A DNA stretch of 64,000 bases from Tichowtungia aerotolerans. GTDB lineage: Bacteria; Verrucomicrobiota; Kiritimatiellia; Kiritimatiellales; Tichowtungiaceae. The stretch spans positions 2,360,900 through 2,424,899 of the forward strand of contig NZ_CP047593.1 in the NCBI RefSeq assembly GCF_009905215.1, in the 5' to 3' direction. Under the pieces are notes generated by a model. That model did not search any database. It was not told the DNA's origin and saw nothing but the letters and a program-made list of their open reading frames with translations. The translations under genes and the position numbers were made by a program. Numbering within the stretch: position 1 is the stretch's first letter; each line of letters begins with the position of its first letter. Of the stretch, positions 3 through 14,240 are shown piece by piece.

Positions 3-1277
3 GACTTCACCATCGATCAGGCCAATGAAATTGTGGACTATTTCTCGTCGCAGAATCTTTATCTGATCGGTGGCGTCAACTGGTACTGGCAGAATAAAAG
101 TGACTGGTATGACCATTACCGGCGCTACGACCAGCTGCTCGGCTGGATGGAATCCGACCGCAGCCGTCTGAGCAGCCAGAAGCAGCAGCTCGAAAACTGG
201 GGCATGAAAATTCTCCCGCATGCCTGGCCCGGATTTTCCTGGTGTAACCTGAAAATGCTGCAGCCGGGAACGCAGTACACGCCGCGCAGCGGCGGGCAGT
301 TTTATTGGAACCGTCTCTACAACGCCGTTTCCTGCGGGGCCGACCAAATCTTTCTGGGCATGTTCGATGAGTACGATGAGGCGACGGCGATCATGCCGAT
401 GTCCGATGAGCACCCGGCACCGCACACCGCGTGGGGACAGTACATCGACAACGAAGGCCGGGACCCATTTCGCTATCTTCAGCTGAGTGTTGCCGCACGG
501 GAGATGTTGCGCGGTGAGCGTTCGGTCTCGTCATCGCTTCCGTCTCCCGACAGCCTGGTGGATCCGGCATACGGCGGAGCCCATGCAACCGCCTATCTGC
601 GGCAAACCAATTCGGAAAACGGGCTGATGCTTCGGGAGCCGTCCGATGGGCAGACCGTCGCGGCGGTTGTCGGCGGCTATGACTGCCGAGTGAACGGTCC
701 GGATCCTTCTGCAGATTATTATTTTTATTTTGATATCGATGACTCGCTTTGCTTCAGCAATCAGGCCGGACAGGCGGTTACGGTTGAAATTGAGTACTAT
801 GATGATGCGGGCACCGCGGGAGCCCGGTTCCGGCTGCAGTACGACGGTCTGTCCGGATCTTACGCGCCACATGCGACCGTTTATACGGCGCCGGGAAGCG
901 GCGGGTGGAAAAACCTGCGCTGGAATATCAACGATGGCCTGTTCGCCGGAAGGCAGCATCTCGACTCGGATTTCCGTATCGCACTGTATTCGGGTGATCA
1001 GGCGGCCCTCCGCCGGGTCAGTGTGTTTTTTCCGGAAGAAGAGGCCGGAACGACCGCTGCGGACGAGGTCGGTCTCCAGTGGCTGGACGGCGAGGTGTCC
1101 TGGTCGACCGCCGCCGGTGCCGTCGGCTGGCAGTTATTCCGGAGCGACTCACTGGACCAGCCGGAGTGGCAGGAGATTCCCGGCACAGTCCGCATTTCGG
1201 ATGAGACGGTTTTTTATCGTCCTGAAGCAACCGCTGAAGCGGGATTCTACCGGCTGGAACGGACCGTCAGGCAATAG
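3..1277 (+). CDS. GH71/99-like secreted glycoside hydrolase, 5'-truncated by the window edge
   Basis: The frame is open from base 3 with no start in view, so about 424 C-terminal residues are visible. The part around residues 75-130 carries the pattern PGFSW, then GGxFYW, then MFDEYDEATAI. I associate this with proteins annotated as GH71/99-like or xylosidase-like in Kiritimatiellota and Bacteroidota; the acidic MFDEYDE stretch is a likely catalytic or substrate-binding loop. A beta-rich region (about 215-345) resembles a carbohydrate-binding module. The last 70 residues (WQLFRSDSL to FYRLERT) resemble the fibronectin-like tail repeated in secreted enzymes of this phylum. Only 10 bases separate it from the next gene, so they are co-transcribed. 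The exact substrate is unknown; the GH71/99 label rests on motif memory. Confidence 0.65.
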   Translation, partial: DFTIDQANEIVDYFSSQNLYLIGGVNWYWQNKSDWYDHYRRYDQLLGWMESDRSRLSSQKQQLENWGMKILPHAWPGFSWCNLKMLQPGTQYTPRSGGQFYWNRLYNAVSCGADQIFLGMFDEYDEATAIMPMSDEHPAPHTAWGQYIDNEGRDPFRYLQLSVAAREMLRGERSVSSSLPSPDSLVDPAYGGAHATAYLRQTNSENGLMLREPSDGQTVAAVVGGYDCRVNGPDPSADYYFYFDIDDSLCFSNQAGQAVTVEIEYYDDAGTAGARFRLQYDGLSGSYAPHATVYTAPGSGGWKNLRWNINDGLFAGRQHLDSDFRIALYSGDQAALRRVSVFFPEEEAGTTAADEVGLQWLDGEVSWSTAAGAVGWQLFRSDSLDQPEWQEIPGTVRISDETVFYRPEATAEAGFYRLERTVRQ

Positions 1278-1287
1278 GGGGAATGAG

Positions 1288-4200
1288 ATGAGGCAGGTGA
1301 AGTTTTTTATACTTTTTCTCGTGGTGCTTTCCAGTATGGGGCGGGCCGATCGAGTGATCAACGGCAGTTTTGAAACCGGAACGCCCGGAGTGCTGGTTCC
1401 GCCGAGTCCGTCTGTAGATGTGGTGGTCGGCTGGCGGGCTTTTGATACGTCGGGAGCGTTTGTGACGTATGAACTGATTTCTGATCCGAAGGAGGCGTTC
1501 GACGGAAACAACTATATCCGTATTACCTCCACAGCAAGTGAGGGCGTCGTGGATTCCGGACTGGACATCACCTGGGGCAGAGCCGGGGCCTTTACGGTTT
1601 CGACTGGTGTGACCTATACCGTTTCGTTTGCTGCCAAACGAATTGACGGTACAGACAATTCCCTGTTCGTGGGAATCAAGACCTTTGACGGAAACGTTGC
1701 GCTGGAATCATTGGTCAGCGAGGGAATGTCGCTGACGGATACCTGGGCCGTGTACTCGTATGACATTACCCCGACATTATCGACCTCCAGCGGGGACGAT
1801 CCGGTTCTGTACATTGGATTCCGCCCCAAAAGCACCCGTTTGCTGGATGAGACCATCTGTCTGGATGCTGTCCGCTGCCGCGGCCGGACCGCTTTTGCGG
1901 AGGTCGGGCAGATGGCATTGGGCGAGGCCGACGTGCGCCTGACGGTTTTCGGTGCCGATCGCACCGCTTACAGCCTGCAGTCTACGACCAATCTGGCGTC
2001 CTCGCCGATTGTCTGGTCGCAGCATGAATCGGTGCAGGGCAGCGGTGTTCCGCTGGAACTGGCCACTGCGGTGACCGCGGATCCGGTCAGGTTCTTCCGG
2101 GTGGAAACCGAAGAGGTGCTCTCCGGAACCCCGGCGATTTCTGCGGTGCAGTATGCGCAAGACGATCTGCCGCTGATTGCCGGCAGTGTGACGGAGTACG
2201 GTGCGGATCCTTCCGGTTTGTCCGATTCTACGACCGCGTTCACTTCCGCACTGAATGCCTGTGCCTCGCAGGGCGGCGGGACGGTTTTTGTTCCCGCCGG
2301 GGAGTATCGGATTGATGGGACGCTCCGCATCCCCTCCGGCGTGACGCTGCGCGGAGACTGGTGCCTGCCGGAAGACGGGACGCGTTCCGAAATCGGAACC
2401 CTGCTGAAGGCCTATGCGGGGCGGGGCGATCCGGACGGAACCCCATTCATTCAGCTGGGGGGTGTCGGTGGTCTGAAAAACATGGCCATTTGGTATCCGG
2501 AGCAGGCGTATGACCAGATCGTTGCATATCCATGGACCATCAAGCAGAGCGGTATCGAGGGCATGACGGTGGAGAATGTCACCCTGTTCAATGCCTATCA
2601 GGGAATCAAAATCGGCCCGGAGGTCAACGAACTGCATCTCTTGCGAAATATTTACGGAACCCCGTTGCGATACGGTTTGTTCCGTGACCGGACGACGGAT
2701 GTCGGACGAGCGCAGCAGGTTTGTTTCTCTCCCGATTACTGGGCGGAATCCGGACTGCCGGGGGCCCCGGCTGCCGAAGCGCAAGAAGCTCTTCTGAGGG
2801 AATGGATGCAGGCCAACGGCGAGGCGTTTGTGATCCATTTTCCTAACTGGATCTTTATGTGCGATATTGTTGTCGATGGGTACCGGACCGGTATTTCCAC
2901 ATGGCCGTCCATCGCCGTGGATGACCGGGTGGGGCCGAACGGCGGTGTGTACGGTTTGACGATTACCAACTGCATGACCGGGATTCAGCTGGGGAACAAC
3001 AATGAGCACGGTTTTCTGGTCACCAAAGGGAATATCCATACTGAGGAAGCGGCGGTTTTGGCCACGTCGGAGTTTGCCAGTCTGGCGCAGTTCAATGCGG
3101 TATCGATTTCCGGTGCTGTCAGCAATCAGGGGAGCGGCCTGCTGAGTTTTGTTAATTCTGAATTTGTACAGTGGCCGGCGGGGCAATTTGCGATCCATGT
3201 GCAGCAGGGCGGGCTGGCTGTTCTGCAGTCCGCATTTCGACAGAACAGCAAGCAGATTTATCTTGGCGCGCAGGTGCGCGGGGCTCTGATTGTCGGCAAC
3301 TCGTTTCCCGACACCGTATCCGGCGGGCCGGTGCAGCCGTATATCGAAAATCATGCATTCGGCGCTGACGTCGACATTTCGCATGAAGCGTTGAACCTCT
3401 CTGTTATTGACACAGATTACGAACACATTGCGCCGGTGCGCCGCCCGCAGAGTCGACTGCTGTATGATGCGAAGAGCTACGGCGCGCAGGGTGACGGGGC
3501 AAACGATGATTCCCTCGCGATTCAGGCCGCGTTGCGAGCGGCCCGTCAAACCGGGGGAACCGTTTATCTTCCGCCGGGGAAGTATTTGCTGGCCGATGAG
3601 CTTATGGTGCCCACCGGCGTGGAACTGCGCGGTTCGTTCGATACGCCGCACCATACGCTGTTCGACGGTGGATCTCCGGGACCTAAAGGCGCCCAGTTGA
3701 TCGTGAATACGGGACAGAATGAACCCGAGGGTGCGCCGCTGATCCGGCTGGAAGCCGGTGCCGGTGTGCGGGGAATCACGGTGTATTATCCCGACCAGAC
3801 CGTGGACAGTACCGATTATATCCCGTATCCGTGGACCATTCAGGGACTCGGTTCCAATGTGTGGGTCCGGGATGTCACATTGGTGAATCCGTATCAGGGC
3901 ATTGATTTCGGAACATACGACACGACCGGACATGTCATTGACTATGTGGCCGGCTCTCCGTTGGTGACCGGCGCATTTGTCGGCCGAAGCGCTGAGGGCT
4001 GGGTGCAGAATGTGCAGTTTATTCCGCATTACTGGACACGGTCCGATTATGCGAATCAGCCGGTTGACGGACCGACTCTGCGCGGGTTTACACAGCAGAC
4101 ACTGGACGGAATGATTTTTGGAGCCTGTGAAAATGAACATGTGCTGAATACCTTTGTTTACGGGGCGCGGCGGGGCCTGAGGTTGATCGAACAGAACGGA

Positions 4201-4668
4201 ACCGCCTGCAGCGGAACCTTTATTGCGCACGGAACCGACGGCAGCGGCACGGCGCTGCAGATCGATGCGGCCGGTTCTGTCGATTTCATGAACACACAGC
4301 TGGTGGCCATGGAAACGACGGCGACTCGACGGAATATTTATGTGACTGGCGGTCTCAGCGGAACCGTTCGTTTTTTCAATACAATCTGCTGGGGACAGCC
4401 GGATAAGAACATTGAAATCAACAGCGGGAAGATTGAGCTGCAGCAGGCCGGGTTTTCCCGCGCGGCGCCGGTGGAGCTGCGTGGAGGCCAGACAAAAGTC
4501 AATGGGGCATACTTCCAGCGTGATGCGGAAAATATAGTGATTCGCTCCGGCATTGTGTCGGCACAGATCGTCGGCAATGTCAGGATCGGAAACGGCGCGG
4601 AGTCGGAAAACTTCATCAACGAGGCCGGATCGGCCGCGATATTCGAGCATAATATCCGGATGCCCTGA
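1288..4668 (+). CDS. Secreted double pectate-lyase-3 beta-helix protein with N-terminal CBM-like domain
   Basis: The gene encodes 1126 residues. I chose ATG 1288 because it gives a clear signal peptide (MRQVKFFILFLVVLSSMGRA) behind an AGGGGG ribosome site; the open frame extends upstream only as a shadow of the previous gene. Residues about 22-180 look like a CBM4/9-type module (NGSFETGTPG). Two tandem pectate-lyase-3 / GH28-like right-handed beta-helices follow. Each opens with the family signature: YGADPSGLSDSTTAF with GGGTVFVPAGEY, then YGAQGDGANDDSLAI with GGTVYLPPGKY. The two halves look like an internal duplication. Such proteins depolymerise or bind acidic polysaccharides outside the cell. 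No catalytic residues can be assigned, so lyase, hydrolase and binding roles all remain possible. Confidence 0.8.
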   Translation: MRQVKFFILFLVVLSSMGRADRVINGSFETGTPGVLVPPSPSVDVVVGWRAFDTSGAFVTYELISDPKEAFDGNNYIRITSTASEGVVDSGLDITWGRAGAFTVSTGVTYTVSFAAKRIDGTDNSLFVGIKTFDGNVALESLVSEGMSLTDTWAVYSYDITPTLSTSSGDDPVLYIGFRPKSTRLLDETICLDAVRCRGRTAFAEVGQMALGEADVRLTVFGADRTAYSLQSTTNLASSPIVWSQHESVQGSGVPLELATAVTADPVRFFRVETEEVLSGTPAISAVQYAQDDLPLIAGSVTEYGADPSGLSDSTTAFTSALNACASQGGGTVFVPAGEYRIDGTLRIPSGVTLRGDWCLPEDGTRSEIGTLLKAYAGRGDPDGTPFIQLGGVGGLKNMAIWYPEQAYDQIVAYPWTIKQSGIEGMTVENVTLFNAYQGIKIGPEVNELHLLRNIYGTPLRYGLFRDRTTDVGRAQQVCFSPDYWAESGLPGAPAAEAQEALLREWMQANGEAFVIHFPNWIFMCDIVVDGYRTGISTWPSIAVDDRVGPNGGVYGLTITNCMTGIQLGNNNEHGFLVTKGNIHTEEAAVLATSEFASLAQFNAVSISGAVSNQGSGLLSFVNSEFVQWPAGQFAIHVQQGGLAVLQSAFRQNSKQIYLGAQVRGALIVGNSFPDTVSGGPVQPYIENHAFGADVDISHEALNLSVIDTDYEHIAPVRRPQSRLLYDAKSYGAQGDGANDDSLAIQAALRAARQTGGTVYLPPGKYLLADELMVPTGVELRGSFDTPHHTLFDGGSPGPKGAQLIVNTGQNEPEGAPLIRLEAGAGVRGITVYYPDQTVDSTDYIPYPWTIQGLGSNVWVRDVTLVNPYQGIDFGTYDTTGHVIDYVAGSPLVTGAFVGRSAEGWVQNVQFIPHYWTRSDYANQPVDGPTLRGFTQQTLDGMIFGACENEHVLNTFVYGARRGLRLIEQNGTACSGTFIAHGTDGSGTALQIDAAGSVDFMNTQLVAMETTATRRNIYVTGGLSGTVRFFNTICWGQPDKNIEINSGKIELQQAGFSRAAPVELRGGQTKVNGAYFQRDAENIVIRSGIVSAQIVGNVRIGNGAESENFINEAGSAAIFEHNIRMP

Positions 4669-5134: not shown

Positions 5135-6796
5135 ATGAGGAATAAGTGGATGATAATCGCACTGCTGGGAATCGTTGGAATAAAGGGGGAGGCGCAGACT
5201 CAGTATCGGTTTAAAGCCATCGGTCCGGGAACCGATAATCAGTGGACCAATGAACTGAACTGGATTGAAGCGGGCACGACGGCCGCTGTTATTCCCGGCA
5301 CGAATGATATTGCGATTATCAGTAAGGATGGGGAGCTGAATACCACAGCAATTTTAAATACTCTGGCTGTTGCGACGGAGGGGCAGAACAATAACGTGAC
5401 CTTTGATATCAATGATGGAGATTCTCTGAAGACATCTATCATGCGAATTGCCAGTTACAACGGTACAAACAACACCGGTACCGTGAATGTGAACAGTGGC
5501 GGAACACTCCACACGACAAGCGGAGAATTCAGAATGGGCGGAGTGGTGGCTACAGCGACGGGTAATCAGGATTATCTGAATGTGAACAGCGGCGGAACCG
5601 CTACAATCGAAGGTATGATGTACATTGGATATCGAGATTCAAACGAGGCAGTGATTACGGTTGGTGGAGTACTGAATACCCAAGGTAAAATTAATATGGG
5701 GCAGGGCGTTGGAACGACCGGTAGAATCGATATTTTGGATGGCGGTGTCATGAACGCCAATGGTACCGCGGAGTTTGATATCGGGCTTGGGGATATTGGG
5801 TTCGGTTCGGGAGAGGTAAATGTGGCCGGTACACTCAACACATCCGCATCCTATTTTGATATCGCTGTGGGCGTGGCAGGCAAGGATACCTCGGGCAGTC
5901 TGACCGTTACTGAAACTGGAGTGTTGAGTGGGGCCGGCGGAGCGATTCGGTTGGCAACTGGTGCTGGCAATGCCTGTTCAGCTACGATGACTGTAATGGG
6001 GGTGGTCAGTAATTCCGATGTCATTCAAGTTGGATCTTCGAGTGCAACCAGCACTGCAGCGTTGAAAATAAGCGGTCCCAAAGCATTGGTTCAGGTGTCT
6101 GGGTTTAACTTTAATGAGACCATAGGCGGTGAGACCGCGATGGTTGTGTCGAACGGAGCACAGTTCGTTTCTGAAGGCTGGATGAATTGCGCCGGCAATT
6201 CCAGCGGGGAAATCTTGATTGCCGATGGCGGCAGTTTTTCTGTAGCAAAAATCAATACACTGAACGATACGATTTTTACACTGAGCGGAACCAATGCAAC
6301 GCTGACGGTTGGAAACATCAATCCGATTGGTGGTGTCAACGGCGGATACATCGACCTGCAGGACGCGGACGGAACATCCTCTAGTCGGATTGTCTTTACA
6401 GGTGCGGAGGAAAGCACCATTACCAATCTGGTTGCTGCCGGAACCATCACAAACTCCCTCTGGTCCGGTCAGGAAGATTGGTATCAGGTTGCCGCGAACG
6501 GCAATGGTGATCTTGTTCTTTCAGCGATTCAGCCTGTCACAGAAATTAAAGCGCTTGAAATGGTCGGAGAGAGTCTGTTGAAAATAACGATCAATTCAAC
6601 CGACCAATGGGGGCAGCTGAAGTTGGTCGGAACGTCAGACCTTCTCAAGGACGAGTGGGATTATGTTGCCCATTCGGATAACGGAAGTAATGCGTTTGTG
6701 GTAACAAACCTGTTGTATTCAACGCAAGAAGATGCAGCAACCTGTTCGGTTTACGTGCAGGCAACAAATTCTGCGGTATTTTTCGGCATTGAGTAA
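5135..6796 (+). CDS. Secreted autotransporter-like beta-strand repeat protein
   Basis: The product is 553 residues. The start at 5135 follows a strong AAGGAGGA site and opens a signal peptide ending near GEAQ. The body (about 60-450) is built of short G/N/T-rich beta-strand repeats such as VNSGGTLHT and VNSGGTATI, typical of autotransporter-associated beta-strand or PEP-CTERM-type surface proteins. The last 90 residues (EIKALEMVGES to AVFFGIE) form a separate tail like those of neighbouring secreted enzymes. No PEP-CTERM anchor or outer-membrane barrel is seen, so release or binding to the substrate is likely. It has no recognisable catalytic site. Its promoter carries the LacI-type site, which points to co-regulation with the hydrolases. 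Confidence 0.75.
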   Translation: MRNKWMIIALLGIVGIKGEAQTQYRFKAIGPGTDNQWTNELNWIEAGTTAAVIPGTNDIAIISKDGELNTTAILNTLAVATEGQNNNVTFDINDGDSLKTSIMRIASYNGTNNTGTVNVNSGGTLHTTSGEFRMGGVVATATGNQDYLNVNSGGTATIEGMMYIGYRDSNEAVITVGGVLNTQGKINMGQGVGTTGRIDILDGGVMNANGTAEFDIGLGDIGFGSGEVNVAGTLNTSASYFDIAVGVAGKDTSGSLTVTETGVLSGAGGAIRLATGAGNACSATMTVMGVVSNSDVIQVGSSSATSTAALKISGPKALVQVSGFNFNETIGGETAMVVSNGAQFVSEGWMNCAGNSSGEILIADGGSFSVAKINTLNDTIFTLSGTNATLTVGNINPIGGVNGGYIDLQDADGTSSSRIVFTGAEESTITNLVAAGTITNSLWSGQEDWYQVAANGNGDLVLSAIQPVTEIKALEMVGESLLKITINSTDQWGQLKLVGTSDLLKDEWDYVAHSDNGSNAFVVTNLLYSTQEDAATCSVYVQATNSAVFFGIE

Positions 6797-7026: not shown

Positions 7027-9852
7027 ATGGAGTCAAAGAAGACAGCCATTGTTGTCGCGCATACGCATTGGGATCGGGAGTGGCGATATCCGATCTGGAA
7101 GAACCGGTCGCTGCTGATTGAGTTTATGGATTGGCTGTTGGATATTCTCGAAACCGATCCGGAGTACGGCGGTTTTCTGCTCGACGGCCAGACCGTATGT
7201 ATCGCGGACTATCTGGAGATGCGTCCGGAGAAACGCGAGCGGATTGCCGCACAGGTCAAGGCCGGTAAACTGGCGATTGGGCCTTGGTATACGCTGCCGG
7301 ATCTCTTTCCGATTGCGGGGGAATGCCTGGTGAGGAACCTGCTGAAAGGCATCCGTTTTGCAGAAGAGCTTGGTGGATACAATCCGATTGCCTATCACAC
7401 GTTCGGTTGGGGGCAGACCGCCCAGTTCCCGCAGATTTATCAGGATATAGGCATTCACTATGCCGTGGCGGCCAAAAAAGTGTCGCATGAGCGTGCGCCG
7501 CACTGTGAGTTCCTGTGGACTGCTCCGGACGGATCACAGCTGCTGACATCGCGCCTCGGTGTGTTCACCCGTCAGAACGGTTATTTTTATCTTCATTTTC
7601 CGGTTCGACTGAACAATATCTATGATGAGAACCAGTATGCCTGGAAGTGGGGTGAAAGCGGAATCTGTTACCATCGGGCCGATGAGGAACTGCATGAGAA
7701 CGACTATTTTCGAATTGATCACGAGGACGGATATTACAAAGAAAATGTAAAGAATGCAGCCCAGCGCACTTGGGACAATATGGACGAAACGCTGGTTGGA
7801 GACTGGCGGATTCTGATGTGCGGCTGCGATTTTTCTACGCCGAATCCTTACCTGCCGCAAATGATTAAAGATTGCAACGAAGTACTGCCGGACATTGACT
7901 TCCGGATGGGCTCGCTTCAGGAATATTTTCAAGGATTGGAAAAACGAATTGATCGGGCCGAGATTCCGGCAGTTAACGGCGAACTGCGCGACGGGGAACC
8001 CTGCGGGGCATCTGCCAATGCATTGGCGACGAGGATTCACATTAAGCAGCTGAATAAAAAAGTGGAAAACGTGATGATCCGCCGCACGGAACCGTTGGCG
8101 GCATCGCTGATGATGCTGGGCGACGTGTATCCGACGGCATTCCTGGCCAGGGGCTGGGACTATCTCCTGAAAGCTCATCCGCACGATTCGATCAATGGAG
8201 TCACACAGGACAAAACAGTCGAAGACAACCTGTACCGCCTCAATCAGGCGCTGGAAATCGGGGAAACTGTTTATGAAGATTGCGTGGCCGGACTGCTGAA
8301 ACGGATTGATTTCTCAGCTTATGATAAACAGGACACCCTGCTTCTGCTGCACAATTCGCAGCCGCGTGCGATTCACGAAATTCTTCCGGTGGTGATCGAT
8401 ACGCCCCAGGAGGAAAATGTTTGGGCGGTCGGCGTTGAGGACATCGACGGAGCACCGCTGGCGGTGCAGGCGATTTCCCGCGACGAGCACAAACAGCCGG
8501 TGCACGACATTGAGGCGCGTCCGTGGCCATTCTATGTTGATCGACATCATCTCTATCTGGATACCGGGGATATTCCGGCTGGCGGTTACAAAGTGGTCCG
8601 GGTTGTCGCCGAAAGGACATTCTGGCGCGATGAAGAATGGTGGCCGGCGATGCGCAAGAGCGCGGGAAAGGATATCGGACAGGGAACCCGCTCGCTTGAA
8701 AATGAATTTCTGAAAGTAACCGTGAATGCCGACGGAACATTCGACCTGACCGACAAGTCGACGGATCGAGTGATTCCTGGAATGCATTATTTTGAAGACG
8801 ATGGTGATACGGGAGACTACTGGGCCTATTATCCGCCGTACGGCAATCAGGTGATTTCCAGCCGAGGATTCAATTCCCGGATCTGGATGGAAGACAACGG
8901 CCCGCTCAGCGCGACGATCGGGATAGAAACCTGCATGCAGATTCCGGCCCGCGCCGAATACGGCACGGCGAAGATTCAGGGATATGGCAGGCGGAGCGAC
9001 GAACTGGTGGACCTGAAAATCGTTTCCCGCATCACGCTGAATCGGGGCTGCCGCCACCTGAAGGTGAAGACCTCCATTGACAACCGGGCGCGGGACCATC
9101 GCGTGCGCCTGATGATTCCGACCGATATCCGGACGGACTTTTCGGATGCAGCGGGCCACTTTATCGTTGATCGGCGCGGTGCGGTTCACGAGTGCGACGC
9201 CGATGGTACATTCTATCCCGAGATGGCGCTGCGGCCGCAGGGCATCTTCGCCAGTGTCAGCGACGGCGACATCGGGCTGTCGGTGCTCAACAACTGCCTG
9301 ACGGAATTCCAGTTGATGACGGATGACCGCGGGACGATTGCGCTGACTCTGCTGCGTGCCATCCGGAACCGGATCTGTACCGAATCCCGGATTTCTTCGG
9401 AGTTTCCGAATAAGCTCGGCAGTCAGATGCTGCAGACCGTGGACTATGAATATGCCGTGTACCCGCACCGGGGCGACTGGCAGCAGGCAAACGTGTTTGC
9501 GGAAGCCGACGCGCTGAATGCCAAACCGGCAGCGGTTCAGGTTTCCAACAGCGGCGGCGGAGACCTGTCGCCATCCGCCGGTTTCTATTCGATTGAGAAC
9601 GAAACGCTGGTCCTGTCTAGTGTGAAGAAAGCCGAGGACCGGAACTCGCTGGTCCTCCGACTTTATAATCCAACGAAAGAGCTGCAGACTGGCGCGGTAA
9701 CATTCGGTTTTCCGCTGGAGCGCGTGTGGAAGATCAACCTGAACGAAGTTCGCGGGAACGAACTTCCCGTGAAGGCCGGGACGGTTTCGCTGTCTGTTCC
9801 CTCCGGAAAAATTGTTACGCTTGAAGTGGAATCGAAAGGGAGTGCGCAGTGA
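7027..9852 (+). CDS. GH38-like alpha-mannosidase family protein lacking the usual nucleophile
   Basis: The product has 941 residues. ATG 7027 is preferred over the in-frame TTG at 7024; GAGAGGG lies upstream. The N-terminal (beta/alpha)7 domain shows the zinc motif AHTHWDREW (H12, H14, D16) and the LLDGQT loop. The family's WxxDxFG nucleophile segment reads here AYHTFGWGQTAQFPQI, with His124 where Asp is expected. The middle and C-terminal beta domains follow to the end, and no signal peptide is seen, so it acts in the cytoplasm on imported oligosaccharides. The GTG start of the sulfatase overlaps its stop codon. This may be a divergent GH38 branch with another nucleophile. One imperfect TTTCCAA palindrome at 7926 encodes FQGLEK. 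Confidence 0.75.
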   Translation: MESKKTAIVVAHTHWDREWRYPIWKNRSLLIEFMDWLLDILETDPEYGGFLLDGQTVCIADYLEMRPEKRERIAAQVKAGKLAIGPWYTLPDLFPIAGECLVRNLLKGIRFAEELGGYNPIAYHTFGWGQTAQFPQIYQDIGIHYAVAAKKVSHERAPHCEFLWTAPDGSQLLTSRLGVFTRQNGYFYLHFPVRLNNIYDENQYAWKWGESGICYHRADEELHENDYFRIDHEDGYYKENVKNAAQRTWDNMDETLVGDWRILMCGCDFSTPNPYLPQMIKDCNEVLPDIDFRMGSLQEYFQGLEKRIDRAEIPAVNGELRDGEPCGASANALATRIHIKQLNKKVENVMIRRTEPLAASLMMLGDVYPTAFLARGWDYLLKAHPHDSINGVTQDKTVEDNLYRLNQALEIGETVYEDCVAGLLKRIDFSAYDKQDTLLLLHNSQPRAIHEILPVVIDTPQEENVWAVGVEDIDGAPLAVQAISRDEHKQPVHDIEARPWPFYVDRHHLYLDTGDIPAGGYKVVRVVAERTFWRDEEWWPAMRKSAGKDIGQGTRSLENEFLKVTVNADGTFDLTDKSTDRVIPGMHYFEDDGDTGDYWAYYPPYGNQVISSRGFNSRIWMEDNGPLSATIGIETCMQIPARAEYGTAKIQGYGRRSDELVDLKIVSRITLNRGCRHLKVKTSIDNRARDHRVRLMIPTDIRTDFSDAAGHFIVDRRGAVHECDADGTFYPEMALRPQGIFASVSDGDIGLSVLNNCLTEFQLMTDDRGTIALTLLRAIRNRICTESRISSEFPNKLGSQMLQTVDYEYAVYPHRGDWQQANVFAEADALNAKPAAVQVSNSGGGDLSPSAGFYSIENETLVLSSVKKAEDRNSLVLRLYNPTKELQTGAVTFGFPLERVWKINLNEVRGNELPVKAGTVSLSVPSGKIVTLEVESKGSAQ
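7926..7942. repeat. HIP-like 17-bp palindrome (TTTTCAA-GGA-TTGGAAA)
   Basis: One mismatch from the TTTCCAA-N3-TTGGAAA consensus. It is the only copy in the first 16 kb, inside the GH38-like gene. Confidence 0.6.
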
Positions 9853-11295
9853 AAAACATATTCGGGGAACTGATGTTTACATCGGGCCTGCTGGTGACGG
9901 GGACGGCGTTGGCGAATGATTCGAGTTCCCTTAAACCTAATGTGCTCCTAATTGTGGCCGATGATTTTGGCAGTGGTTCGCACGCCGCACCTGAACCGGC
10001 TGGCTGAACAGGGCATGCGCTTTACCAATGCCAATACGCCTGCATCGGTCTGCTCTCCGACACGGTATGCATTGCTGACCGGCCGTTATGCTTGGCGCGG
10101 ACCGCTGCCGTTCGGGGTGGTCGGCATCAACGATCCTCTGACCATTGAACCGGATCGTCCAACCGTTGGCGGTCTGATGAAACGATCCGGATATCGTACG
10201 GCACAGATCGGAAAATGGCATCTGGGATATGGAGACCGCATGCTGTCGAACCCTGCGGAGCGTATCGACCATCTTTCTCCGGGACCCAACGATCTCGGTT
10301 TCGACTATCATTTCGGCCTGCCGCAGAATCTGGACGACCCGTTGCGGGTCTGGATTGAAAACGACGGAATTTACGGTCTTCGCTCGCTAAAGATCAGTCA
10401 GTATGCTCATTCTTTTTATGGCGGAACCTATGCGGGGTTTGATGCGCCGCAGCGCAGCCGGGAAGAGGCGACGGAGTTCCTGACGGAACGGGCGTCCGAC
10501 TGGATTCGGAAAGTGCACCGGGACAAGCCGGATCAGCCGTTCTTTCTCTACTTTGCTCCGCCGGCGGTTCATCATCCGATTGTGCCGTCAGAAACCATGC
10601 GCGGCACAAGTGATTGCGGAGCATACGGTGACTTTATTCAGGATCTGGACCTGTCGGTCGGTCGGCTGATCGGCACGCTGGCTTACGAAGGAATTCTGGA
10701 TGACACGCTGGTTATCTTCACGGCGGACAACGGGGCCGACCTTCCCGATTCGCCCAATCAGCCTGAAATACGGGCCCGGCAGGCGGGGCTGCTGGCGAAC
10801 GGTCCGCTGCGCGGAGACAAGCACCGGATTTACGAAGGCGGCATGCGCGTTCCGCTGATTGTCCGCTGGCCGGGGCGGGTGCCGGCGGGGTCGGTGGCCG
10901 ACCACATGGTGAATATTGTTGATATTTATGCAACCTTGGCGAATGTCCTCAGCGACCGGCTGAAGGACGGTGAGGCTCCCGACAGCTTCAGCTTCCTGCC
11001 GACCCTGCTGGGCGAAGAGCAACCGGATCGACGTTCGATGGTAAGCGACAGCGAGGCTGGAATTCTCGCGCTGCGCTCCGGGACGTGGAAATACATTGAA
11101 GGGAAATTCCCGGACTCCATGTCGGCGAACCATAAAATGCGCGCCGGTTATTTCCGCGGGGAAGATGAGCGGGCACTGTACGACCTGGTCGCCGATCCTG
11201 GGGAGCAGCACAACCTGATCGGCGAATATCCGGAGGTTGCTGAACAGATGCAGAAGACGCTGGATGCGTATCGGAAAAATGGGAAATCCCGCTGA
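9849..11295 (+). pseudogene. S1-family sulfatase with an N-terminal frame-disrupting deletion
   Basis: GTG 9849 overlaps the GH38 stop and opens a signal peptide followed by KPNVLLIVADDFG, the normal N-terminus with the metal-binding DD pair. After Gly (9969-9971) this frame runs only to a stop near 10002. The family sequence resumes in another frame at about 9973 with VRTPHLNRLAEQG. About 10-13 residues usually found between DDFG and the TPxLxRLA helix are missing, so a deletion not divisible by three explains the break. Everything downstream is intact: CSPTR with formylglycine Cys (10051-10053), the HxPxxPS region, TADNGAD and GGMRVPLIVRWPG. It is a recent pseudogene, a phase-variable allele or an assembly error. 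Confidence 0.75.
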
Positions 11296-12080: not shown

Positions 12081-12973
12081 AGCCTGCACGGAAGCGCGAA
12101 CTGGCCGAGGGGGCATGTGATGCATACGGACTCTCGGGCCGCCGGGCGTGCGGGCTTTTTGAGTTAAGCCGGACCACCTTTTTCTACAAAGCGAAGCCTC
12201 GGGACGATGAGGCGCTTCGTCTGCGGATTAAGGAACTGGCCGCTAAACGTGTCCGGTTCGGTTACCGGCGCATTCATGTTCTGTTGCGCCGGGAAGGATG
12301 GGAGATTAATCACAAAAGAGTCTATCGGGTCTACATGGAGGAAAACCTTGCCGTTCGCACGAAACCCCGTAAAAAGTTGGCGAACCGGCCTCGTGTTCCT
12401 CTTGAGCAGGCTGCCGGGCCCAACGAGCAATGGAGTATGGACTTTGTGATGGATCGCACCGAGGACGGGCGTCACTTCAGGATACTGACGGTAGTCGATA
12501 ACTTTAGTCGGGAATGCCTGGCGCTATATGCTGACCGATCCATCACCGGTGAAAAGGTCGCGTCTTGTCTGAACGGAGTGGCTAATCAACGCGGTTATCC
12601 CAAAAGCATTCGTGTGGACAACGGAAGCGAGTTTTACTCCAGGTCGATGGATGCCTGGACATATCATCATGAGGTCGCCATGGAGTTTATCCGACCGGGT
12701 AAGCCGACCGAAAATGGATACATCGAAAGCTTCAACGGAAAGTTGAGGGATGAATGTTTGAATGTGGAGCTTTTCTTCGGAGTGGACGATGCCCGTGATA
12801 AACTCGCAGCATGGAAAAAAGATTACAATGAGCAGCGACCGCATAAGTCGCTTGATAACAAGACTCCGACGGAATATATAGGTGCGTGGATGGAGGCGTC
12901 CGCGCTTCCCACCCTCCTCCGGAGGAGGGAGGGAACCCAGAGAACACAGCAACTATTAGAAGCCGTATTTTAG
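12074..12973 (+). CDS. IS3-family transposase OrfB (DDE integrase), made as an OrfAB -1 frameshift fusion
   Basis: The -1 frame is open from the slippery A6G through 12973, about 300 residues, with no suitable independent start near its beginning. The fusion is therefore the likely route. HTH_21 ([20 protein letters not shown] to [14 protein letters not shown]) precedes the rve core. The DDE triad is visible: D in WSMDFVMD, D in RVDNGSEF and E in [16 protein letters not shown]. The reading frame is undamaged, so the element is probably active. Confidence 0.9.
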
Positions 12974-13199
12974 AGGCTCAGTGGTCCAATCGACGGGGGC
13001 AGGTCAATACCCGTGCTGGACTCTCATTAGAACCTGTCCAGTCCATGGGGGCAGGTCAAATACGCTATCGTTTATATCGCCGATTCGGACGTTTAGATTT
13101 GGTCCAATGGAAACCATTCGGTGAGTTGTGCAGTTAAGTCGGGTTTGTCTAATTTTGGTGGCTTTTTTCAACGGGTTTGTATCAACCGTTATTGATTTT

Positions 13200-14240
13200 T
13201 TAAACATTAAAACAGTTTCGAACCGACTGTCGCTCGATCAATTGGAACGGAATAATTAATTTGCTGAGAGGAGCATCGGGGGTATTGATCCTCTGCAACA
13301 TGATTTTGGCTCCCTCTTCTCCCATTCGCTTTCGATCAATACGAATAGTGGTGAGCATCGGGTCAGATTTAATCGCGAAGTCAGTATCATCATATCCCGT
13401 TATACTGATCTGTTCCGGAATATTGACGCCGGCTTCCTGTAATCCTTTCATGATGTGGAATGCTTGATCATCATTAATGGTGACGACAGCTGTTGCTGAA
13501 ATTTTCTGTTTCAGGTTTTGTAAAATAATATTTACTGCATCTTCATCTGTATCAACGGCGATCACCTTGCAGGCTTCCTCGCTTAGGCCTAATTGACGAA
13601 TCTGAGCTTCAAACCCCATGCAACGGGCAGTTTCATTGAAATTAGTGAACTTGTGACGGAACATGATGATGCGTCGATGTCCCTGATTATAGAGATAAGA
13701 AGTCAGTTCCATTATGGCGCGAAAGCCGTCGGATGTGACTGAATCCAGGGAGACGCCGGCGATATCGGTATCGAGCATGAGAAAAGGAATTGAAGTGTGG
13801 TTTAGTTTTTCCTTAAAATCATCTGAATAGCCTCCCATGAGAATGGTGCCGTCCACATAGCCTTCCCGAATGAATTTTGGTAGGTCATCATGCTGGGTAG
13901 AGAGATCGTATCCTGCGAGCAGGAGGTTGTAGTTTGCTTTGGTCAGGGTCTCTTCCAAGCCTTCCATGACTTCAGAGTAAAAAATATTCCCGAAAATCTC
14001 AGTGCAGGAGGGGTAAAAGAGAATGCCTATAGTTTCCGTTGTTCTAGTGCGGAGATTTTTTCCAGCAGCACTGGGGTAATACCCAATTTTCTTGCAGGTT
14101 TCCAGGACTCTTTTTTTTGTGGCCTTTCCGATTCGGCCCTGATTGTTCAGGACGCAGGAGACCGTGGCGATGGAGCAGTTAGCAACCCGTGCCACATCCT
14201 TGATTGTCGGGTTTTTTAAATTTGTGGATATTTTGTTCAT
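13200..14240 (-). CDS. LacI-family transcriptional regulator
   Basis: The product is 346 residues. The N-terminal helix-turn-helix (PTIKDVARVANCSIATVSCVLN) and hinge (RVLETCKKIGYYPSAAGKNLRT) are typical of LacI/GalR, and the rest is a periplasmic-binding-protein-like effector domain ending with GYDDTDFAIKSDPMLTTI. It is convergent with the carbohydrate cluster and separated from it only by the IS element. AAACGTT sites at 4733, 5089 and 6963 are plausible targets, so I infer it represses or activates the hydrolase units in response to a released sugar. No such site is seen before its own start, so autoregulation is not supported. Confidence 0.85.
   Translation of the reverse strand: MNKISTNLKNPTIKDVARVANCSIATVSCVLNNQGRIGKATKKRVLETCKKIGYYPSAAGKNLRTRTTETIGILFYPSCTEIFGNIFYSEVMEGLEETLTKANYNLLLAGYDLSTQHDDLPKFIREGYVDGTILMGGYSDDFKEKLNHTSIPFLMLDTDIAGVSLDSVTSDGFRAIMELTSYLYNQGHRRIIMFRHKFTNFNETARCMGFEAQIRQLGLSEEACKVIAVDTDEDAVNIILQNLKQKISATAVVTINDDQAFHIMKGLQEAGVNIPEQISITGYDDTDFAIKSDPMLTTIRIDRKRMGEEGAKIMLQRINTPDAPLSKLIIPFQLIERQSVRNCFNV

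Follow-up and report, generated by a model that had tools for sequence, protein, structure and literature searches.

What does a GH38 protein do once the catalytic aspartate of its family is gone? The question is raised by the gene at positions 7027-9852 of a 64,000-nucleotide stretch of DNA (the window) from Tichowtungia aerotolerans (contig NZ_CP047593.1), whose genome is a single contig of 3.88 Mb. Among 120 distinct GH38 sequences taken from GTDB contigs and genome searches, including the product of this gene, 88 carry Asp at the nucleophile column and 32 lack it (28 Phe, 2 Cys, 1 Thr, 1 Ser). We show that loss of the nucleophile is linked to a gene for a HAD-family protein, and we propose that Asp-less proteins of this kind may cleave glycosides with phosphate. 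Counterpart residues are those of SpGH38, the retaining alpha-mannosidase of PDB entry 2wyh; L and G numbers are our handles for loci and genomes.

7027..9852, forward strand: Asp-less GH38 gene, 941 aa with an ATG start, assigned by Pfam, an AlphaFold2 model and PDB fold matches
7402..7404, forward strand: Phe126, at the column of the catalytic nucleophile and zinc-ligand Asp (SpGH38 D125); Phe in 28 of 32 Asp-less sequences
7396..7398, forward strand: His124, codon CAC, the residue flagged by the original prediction; a variable position outside the nucleophile column

Fold and nucleophile column

By sequence and by fold, the product is a member of GH38. A Pfam scan returns Glyco_hydro_38N (E 3e-25), Alpha-mann_mid, Glyco_hydro_38C and 38C2, all four above cut-off, although Alpha-mann_mid passes only just (32.2 versus 31.1 bits). 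The AlphaFold2 model has a predicted local distance difference test score (pLDDT) of 89.2 and a predicted template modelling score (pTM) of 0.91; its top solved-structure match is SpGH38 (2wyh; Z 44.5, 2.1 A, 850 residues aligned), and Foldseek matches it to 5kbp at E 7.1e-71. The sole NCBIfam match, mannosylglycerate hydrolase, lies far under its cut-off. No signal peptide was seen by eye, and the HTHWD motif starts at residue 12.

In the active-site description of SpGH38 (PMC2815779), the metal ligands are H13, D15, D125 and H351; D125 corresponds to the nucleophile and D232 to the acid/base, and a stabilising effect on D125 is proposed for R149 and Y192. We placed the corresponding columns with HMMER alignments to 3lvt, 5kbp and 2wyh and with two MAFFT alignments. 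One of the latter is the 120-row set, which holds matches with a start before profile position 40 and an end beyond 600, no two of them identical in residues 150-500; the other holds matches above 150 bits spanning query residues <80 to >850 (n=95, including a second copy of the 7027-9852 gene). In all of these the canonical segment GYxPDxFGxxxQxPQ pairs with AYHTFGWGQTAQFPQ without a gap, and in the alignment to 2wyh the nucleophile segment PIAYHTFGWGQTAQFPQ (residues 120-136) stands ungapped against PLGYFPDTFGNMGQTPQ. The canonical Phe-Gly aligns with Trp128-Gly129, not with Phe126-Gly127, and the Asp column is therefore Phe126. Residue matches counted along the 2wyh alignment are H14=H13, D16=D15, F126=D125, D268=D232, H386=H351 and W599=Y574; the match K150=R149 lies two residues beyond the end of that alignment, in a column that is Arg in 85 of 88 Asp-bearing sequences.

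The original prediction had taken HTFG for the conserved D-x-FG segment (DTFG), a match made two residues early, and had concluded that His124 replaces the catalytic Asp. The codon CAC at 7396-7398 is real and Asp is absent from the nucleophile column, but that column is Phe126. Asp-less relatives carry H, N, T, E, S, P, V or I at the position of His124, and this variability, together with the ungapped alignment, rules it out as an altered nucleophile. A different Asp at the nucleophile column, the alternative raised by the same prediction, was looked for by alignment; the column holds Phe, and the aligned segment of this loop contains no compensating Asp. Sequencing or assembly error is ruled out as the cause of the loss, the motif recurring in 24 sequences (the core group below). 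As aligned, the protein lacks the Asp nucleophile, also a zinc binder, that defines the retaining alpha-mannosidases of GH38.

The Asp-less branch and its active site

Twenty-four sequences, including the 7027-9852 product, combine F126, W128, K150 and R182 and make up this core group. The source records, many of which are metagenome-assembled genomes, carry the names Verrucomicrobia, Kiritimatiellales, Planctomycetes, Treponema, Hydrogenedentota, Ruminiclostridium, Eubacteriales, Lachnospiraceae, Oscillospiraceae and Paenibacillus. A quick, unrooted IQ-TREE tree of 76 of the 120 rows (the 32 Asp-less and every second Asp-bearing sequence), made with the trait columns removed, supports the core group at 99 by the Shimodaira-Hasegawa-like approximate likelihood ratio test (SH-aLRT) and places the loss of Asp in two changes. 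The window's own genome has six GH38N matches, five without Asp (Phe in the 7027-9852 gene, L117 and L120; Thr in L118 and L119) and one that keeps PDxFG. The two Thr paralogs (L118:8755-11502 and L119:5151-8018) also have an Arg near 182; the open reading frame (ORF) of the L118 paralog has no HTHWD motif, for which reason it fell out of the 120-row set, and three genes downstream lies a truncated HAD of 171 aa.

7066..7074, forward strand: His14 and Asp16, predicted zinc ligands (SpGH38 H13, D15); kept in 32 of 32 Asp-less sequences
7084..7086, forward strand: Arg20, a new basic residue beside the -1 subsite Trp; Arg in 30 of 32 Asp-less sequences and 1 of 88 others (79 Tyr)
7408..7416, forward strand: Trp128-Gly129-Gln130, with Trp128 at the canonical Phe (SpGH38 F127)
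7474..7476, forward strand: Lys150, at the column of SpGH38 R149, a helper in nucleophile ionisation
7570..7572, forward strand: Arg182, a new cation in the motif [RK]-x-[NA] after DG
7828..7830, forward strand: Asp268, putative general acid/base (SpGH38 D232); kept in 32 of 32 Asp-less sequences
8182..8187, forward strand: His386 and Asp387, His386 a predicted zinc ligand (SpGH38 H351); both kept in 32 of 32 Asp-less sequences

The alignment predicts a zinc-binding role for H14, D16 and H386, and Asp268 would serve as acid/base; the original prediction was right that the zinc ligands of HTHWD are retained. Around them, several columns differ between the two sets. Trp occupies position 128 in 27 of 32 Asp-less sequences, versus Phe in 86 of 88 Asp-bearing ones, and Q130 is found in 30/32 versus 3/88. 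Column 150 is Lys in 26, Arg in 5 and His in 1 of the Asp-less sequences, versus Arg in 85 and Lys in 3 of the 88. The motif containing R182 occurs in 32/32 (31 Arg, 1 Lys) versus 0/88, the latter being mostly Y-x-N (61/88); it was scored locally, since its alignment column has gaps in 2 of the Asp-less and 85 of the Asp-bearing rows. A further set of basic residues is specific to the core, each in 23 or 24 of 24 sequences: R156, R176, H216, K344, K396, R485, R498, H711 and K928. Because the zinc ligands and acid/base are kept throughout and Arg or Lys at 182 separates the two sets completely, the predicted site is remodelled rather than decayed. The exchange of a carboxylate for cations fits an anion site, without proving one.

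Two alternatives bear directly on this site. A pseudo-enzyme, binding sugar or acting as a regulator, has a precedent of sorts in Drosophila D204A nucleophile mutants, which were crystallised with bound oligosaccharides (PDB titles), so that an Asp-less GH38 site can hold sugar. We nevertheless consider it very improbable: the other catalytic residues are kept in 32/32, 98 positions are invariant across 19 core sequences from several phyla, new clade-specific invariants surround the site, and the gene is linked to one for a HAD protein of sugar-phosphate type. A hydrolase that works by substrate assistance (through a 2-acetamido group, or through O2 by a 1,2-anhydro route) or with zinc-bound water would draw on the open position that a three-ligand His-Asp-His zinc site may leave. 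GH99 enzymes use a 1,2-anhydro route through O2. The sugar may also differ, since the column of SpGH38 Y574, which contacts swainsonine, is Trp (W599) in 29/32 Asp-less sequences versus 16/88 others. Such a hydrolase would leave the HAD partner without a role, and we regard it as improbable.

Linkage of nucleophile loss to a HAD gene

In a scan of neighbours, 7 core loci had a HAD protein (291-357 aa) adjacent or close by. When a HAD profile was searched against all loci, it matched at the same locus as 12 of 32 Asp-less genes, of which L157 (found by the GH38 motif too) and L181 (found only in a HAD-positive genome) were obtained through the HAD match, and at the locus of 0 of 88 Asp-bearing genes; on these counts we reject the HAD gene as a chance neighbour. 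Flank length varies among loci, and in the subset with at least 3 kb on both sides the figures are 9/20 versus 0/51. Six of the 12 pairs overlap, by 4-29 bases when the first start codon is taken, five lie within 85 bases, and L012 has one gene between, a distant GH38N-type protein of 795 aa (L012:7826-10213).

The association extends to whole genomes. We searched the genomes behind 40 loci, namely all 15 core loci and a chosen 25 of the 65 others; one of the latter, L038, proved to be Ser-type, leaving 24 Asp-bearing control genomes, whose remaining GH38 genes were examined only in part. Of the 14 genomes that carry the core loci, 10 have a HAD match at E<1e-100; none of the 24 controls does, their best match being 1.1e-48 (G188); G183, behind the Ser-type L038, reaches 1.1e-6.

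Three taxonomic samples gave the same association. Among 145 genomes of the window's own phylum, the HAD match is strong (E<1e-100, the limit applied in all three samples) in three (G000, G003 and G029), and these are the sole three with a GH38 protein at least 50% identical to the 7027-9852 product; in all three the HAD and GH38 genes lie apart. Of 295 genomes from the order of G161, 4 have the core motif and 5 the HAD, the 5 being the same 4 and G411, which has an adjacent Asp-less GH38 (GYNVFSFGQ). The order of G162 (344 genomes) has the core motif in 3 and the HAD in 8, all 8 with an adjoining Asp-less GH38, the matched stretches being at most 116 bases apart; three of these GH38 proteins are of core type and five have Ser at the nucleophile column and Arg at 182, the Ser type having been looked for in HAD-positive genomes only. 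Ser-type GH38 also stands beside HAD, and the link therefore spans different Asp-less types. Over the three samples, 16 of 16 strong-HAD genomes carry an Asp-less GH38, as a neighbour in 13; the 16 include the seed genomes G000, G161 and G162, so that 13 are independent of seed choice, and two of these 13 (G003 and G029) belong to the window's genus. Relatedness among the genomes makes Fisher values for such counts descriptive, and none is used here. Within that genus, the separate HAD genes lie near a sulfatase (L150:6880-8367) and, in the window's own genome, near genes for sulfite and 3'-phosphoadenosine 5'-phosphosulfate (PAPS) reductases (L149:3258-7719).

The model of the HAD partner (pLDDT 89.7) has a C1-capped HAD fold with a DxD motif. 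Searched against PDB sequences, the HAD profile gives three first matches named beta-phosphoglucomutase (beta-PGM) and a fourth named glycerol-3-phosphatase.

Neighbouring genes and proposed function

Two gene orders suggest, by inference, substrate import followed by cleavage in the cytosol: the L171 operon reads substrate-binding protein (SBP), permease, permease, HAD, GH38, and L009 has two permeases, a DUF3502 protein, HAD and GH38. L157 runs HAD-GH38-mannose-6-phosphate isomerase (PMI), and L156 has HAD, then PMI. In G163, a rumen genome, the contig with the core GH38 (L014) stops at the 3' end of that gene and the contig L156 opens with the HAD and PMI genes; the two may be one operon split by assembly. 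The window's own genome has one PMI match, away from the GH38 locus, and PMI as a general partner was dropped.

Because the Asp is lost, the acid is kept, cations are gained and a HAD gene (sometimes with PMI) stands alongside, we read the 7027-9852 product as an inverting phosphorylase that acts in the cytoplasm, depends on zinc and cleaves alpha-glycosides, probably alpha-mannosides; the HAD protein would convert the beta-sugar-1-phosphate that it releases. We judge this reading about evenly balanced between right and wrong; phosphate as the nucleophile, inversion, the HAD protein as a mutase, mannose as the sugar and the cytoplasmic location are all parts of it that we infer. Zinc on His14, Asp16 and His386 would position the sugar and Asp268 would protonate the leaving group. 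Inorganic phosphate would fill the place of the absent carboxylate, possibly contacting the vacated zinc position, and would be held by the new or changed cations Arg182, Lys150 and Arg20. Its attack on the anomeric carbon from the far side would turn an alpha-mannoside, or a related alpha-glycoside, into a beta-sugar-1-phosphate. The beta-PGM-like HAD would then convert beta-mannose 1-phosphate (beta-Man1P) to mannose 6-phosphate, and PMI would convert this to fructose 6-phosphate, which would enter glycolysis. Discussing inverting phosphorylases, PMC8950772 states that one catalytic residue suffices, phosphate taking the other role, and that a GH84 enzyme was turned into a phosphorylase by a single change. 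Set against that single-acid criterion, our protein has no nucleophile and keeps the acid Asp268, while D226 and D322 of the core are possible bases. The original prediction had offered a catalytically distinct branch (with phosphorolysis among its options) or a binding protein; the distinct branch holds, phosphorolysis is its best-supported option, and a pure binding protein is unlikely.

The two possible bases lead to the main rival, an inverting hydrolase in which, after loss of the nucleophile, water is activated by a relocated acid such as Asp322 or, in the clade insertion, Asp226. Both positions are acidic in 24/24 core sequences; the D322 column is acidic in 6 of the 88 Asp-bearing sequences (63 of which have a letter there), and at D226 none of the 88 has an aligned letter. 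Members of GH97 are described in PMC2670981 as inverting or retaining with acids at different places, which provides a precedent, and PfkB-type kinases at four core loci could take up a free sugar. We consider this hydrolase unlikely, if worth serious attention, for it leaves unexplained both the HAD sugar-phosphate partner and the cations gained near the lost carboxylate.

Several observations weigh against the phosphorylase. The PfkB-type kinases flank L011, L021, L121 and L122, as expected for release of free sugar, and PMI is found in 2 loci only. The acids gained by the core (D226, D322, E410 and D715, 24/24) could include a base. Loss of Asp needs just two changes on the tree, and the correlated residue changes are therefore not independent of ancestry. 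The HAD gene of the window's own genome is 0.6 Mb from the GH38 gene; a HAD ortholog was not found by whole-genome search in 4 of the 14 core-carrying genomes (G159, G160, G165 and G166) or in G183, and the Asp-less loci L123, L182 and L186 have no HAD in the locus by profile search. As to the partner itself, its structural matches mix phosphatases with beta-PGM, a putative phosphatase coming first (Z 18.4-21.0 among the matches listed). All four HAD proteins compared with TIGR01990 and TIGR02009 score 27.0-35.9 bits, where the cut-offs are 189.4 and 153.35; the top NCBIfam model is of beta-PGM type in three of them and TIGR02253 in the fourth, all far under cut-off. Nor is the Arg that aligns with the SR motif of 4gib, and that has the role of R49, kept in the partner. 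Mutase and phosphatase are both compatible with the structural matches, and the mutase role we assign is a putative one.

Other neighbours were considered as guides to the substrate. URO-D-like genes (uroporphyrinogen decarboxylase/methyltransferase family) recur near core GH38 or HAD genes in L011, L012, L152, L154, L157 and L172, called by Pfam at four loci and by similarity at two. They may hint at methylated sugars, a reading that we dropped as too vague; a rhamnose reading (rhaM in L007, an HpcH/HpaI aldolase in L117) was dropped for too few loci. Together with Gfo/Idh/MocA neighbours in L011 and L172 and the presumably open zinc site, the URO-D-like genes could also suit some different zinc chemistry on sugars (a lyase, deacylase, transferase or synthase) built on the GH38 scaffold. 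This we think quite improbable, given that the acid/base Asp is kept in 32/32 and that linkage to PMI and HAD suits glycosyl cleavage to a sugar phosphate.

Within the window, a sulfatase gene (9849-11295, forward strand) directly follows the GH38 gene, with a frame break near the start: one frame contains a stretch resembling a signal peptide and the first motif, and another the remainder with an intact CSPTR motif. We take it for a pseudogene or an assembly error. The 553-aa protein encoded upstream of the GH38 gene (5135-6796, forward strand) has no Pfam or NCBIfam match at E at most 0.001. Farther off lie a 1312-aa ORF with a pectate-lyase/rhamnogalacturonase-like domain (730-4668, forward strand) and an integrase-core ORF of insertion-sequence (IS) type adjoining a LacI-type regulator (12284-14240).

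Comparison with known systems

GH38 is known as a retaining family, and a conserved branch without the nucleophile means that its genes are being misread as ordinary alpha-mannosidases or mannosylglycerate hydrolases. The fuller claim we advance tentatively and with some doubt: Asp-less GH38 proteins would form a new family of inverting, zinc-dependent phosphorylases that cleave alpha-mannosides and release beta-D-mannose-1-phosphate, and the HAD protein would be a new beta-phosphomannomutase. Should phosphorolysis prove right, these would be, as far as the literature searched shows, the first phosphorylases of GH38 and also the first to act on alpha-mannosides, and would be useful for synthesis of alpha-mannosides from a sugar phosphate; with the HAD protein and PMI, they would form a catabolic route for alpha-linked mannosides that spares one ATP per sugar. 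The list of inverting phosphorylases up to November 2021 in PMC8950772 (GH65, 94, 112, 130, 149, 161 and GT108) makes no mention of GH38, and no GH38 or alpha-mannoside phosphorylase was found in the open-licence PMC literature; beta-D-mannose 1-phosphate is named in PMC10948575, on manno-heptose biosynthesis. Our protein matches none of the listed families by Pfam, which returns GH38 domains only (E at most 0.001). No glycoside phosphorylase is among the fold matches listed for the model, an absence that carries no excluding weight.

With the retaining alpha-mannosidases of GH38 (SpGH38, 2wyh; the Enterococcus protein of 3lvt and 5kbp), the 7027-9852 product shares the fold, the three predicted zinc ligands, the acid/base Asp and the domain order. 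It differs in having Phe126 for the Asp nucleophile, in the changes of SpGH38 F127 to Trp, R149 to Lys and Y574 to Trp, in the new Arg20 and Arg182, in Asn/Val for the Cys pair of SICGCS, and in an insertion at about 195-240. The HAD partner resembles beta-PGM in its C1 cap and DxD motif, but has about 75 extra N-terminal residues and the cap motif VSGHSVSEHL and scores under the curated beta-PGM cut-offs. GH65 inverting phosphorylases are paired with beta-PGM. The likeness that we propose to GH65 lies in this HAD-type partner, a single catalytic acid, alpha-glycoside substrates and a beta-sugar-1-phosphate product, the last three as PMC8950772 gives them for GH65; unlike GH65, our protein belongs to an unrelated sequence family and is predicted to use zinc, and its use of phosphate is a proposal. 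If that proposal holds, bacterial phosphorolysis of mannosides would be common to it and to GH130, a different family, in whose case beta-mannosides yield alpha-Man1P (as stated for GH130 in PMC8950772), whereas here an alpha-mannoside would yield beta-Man1P.

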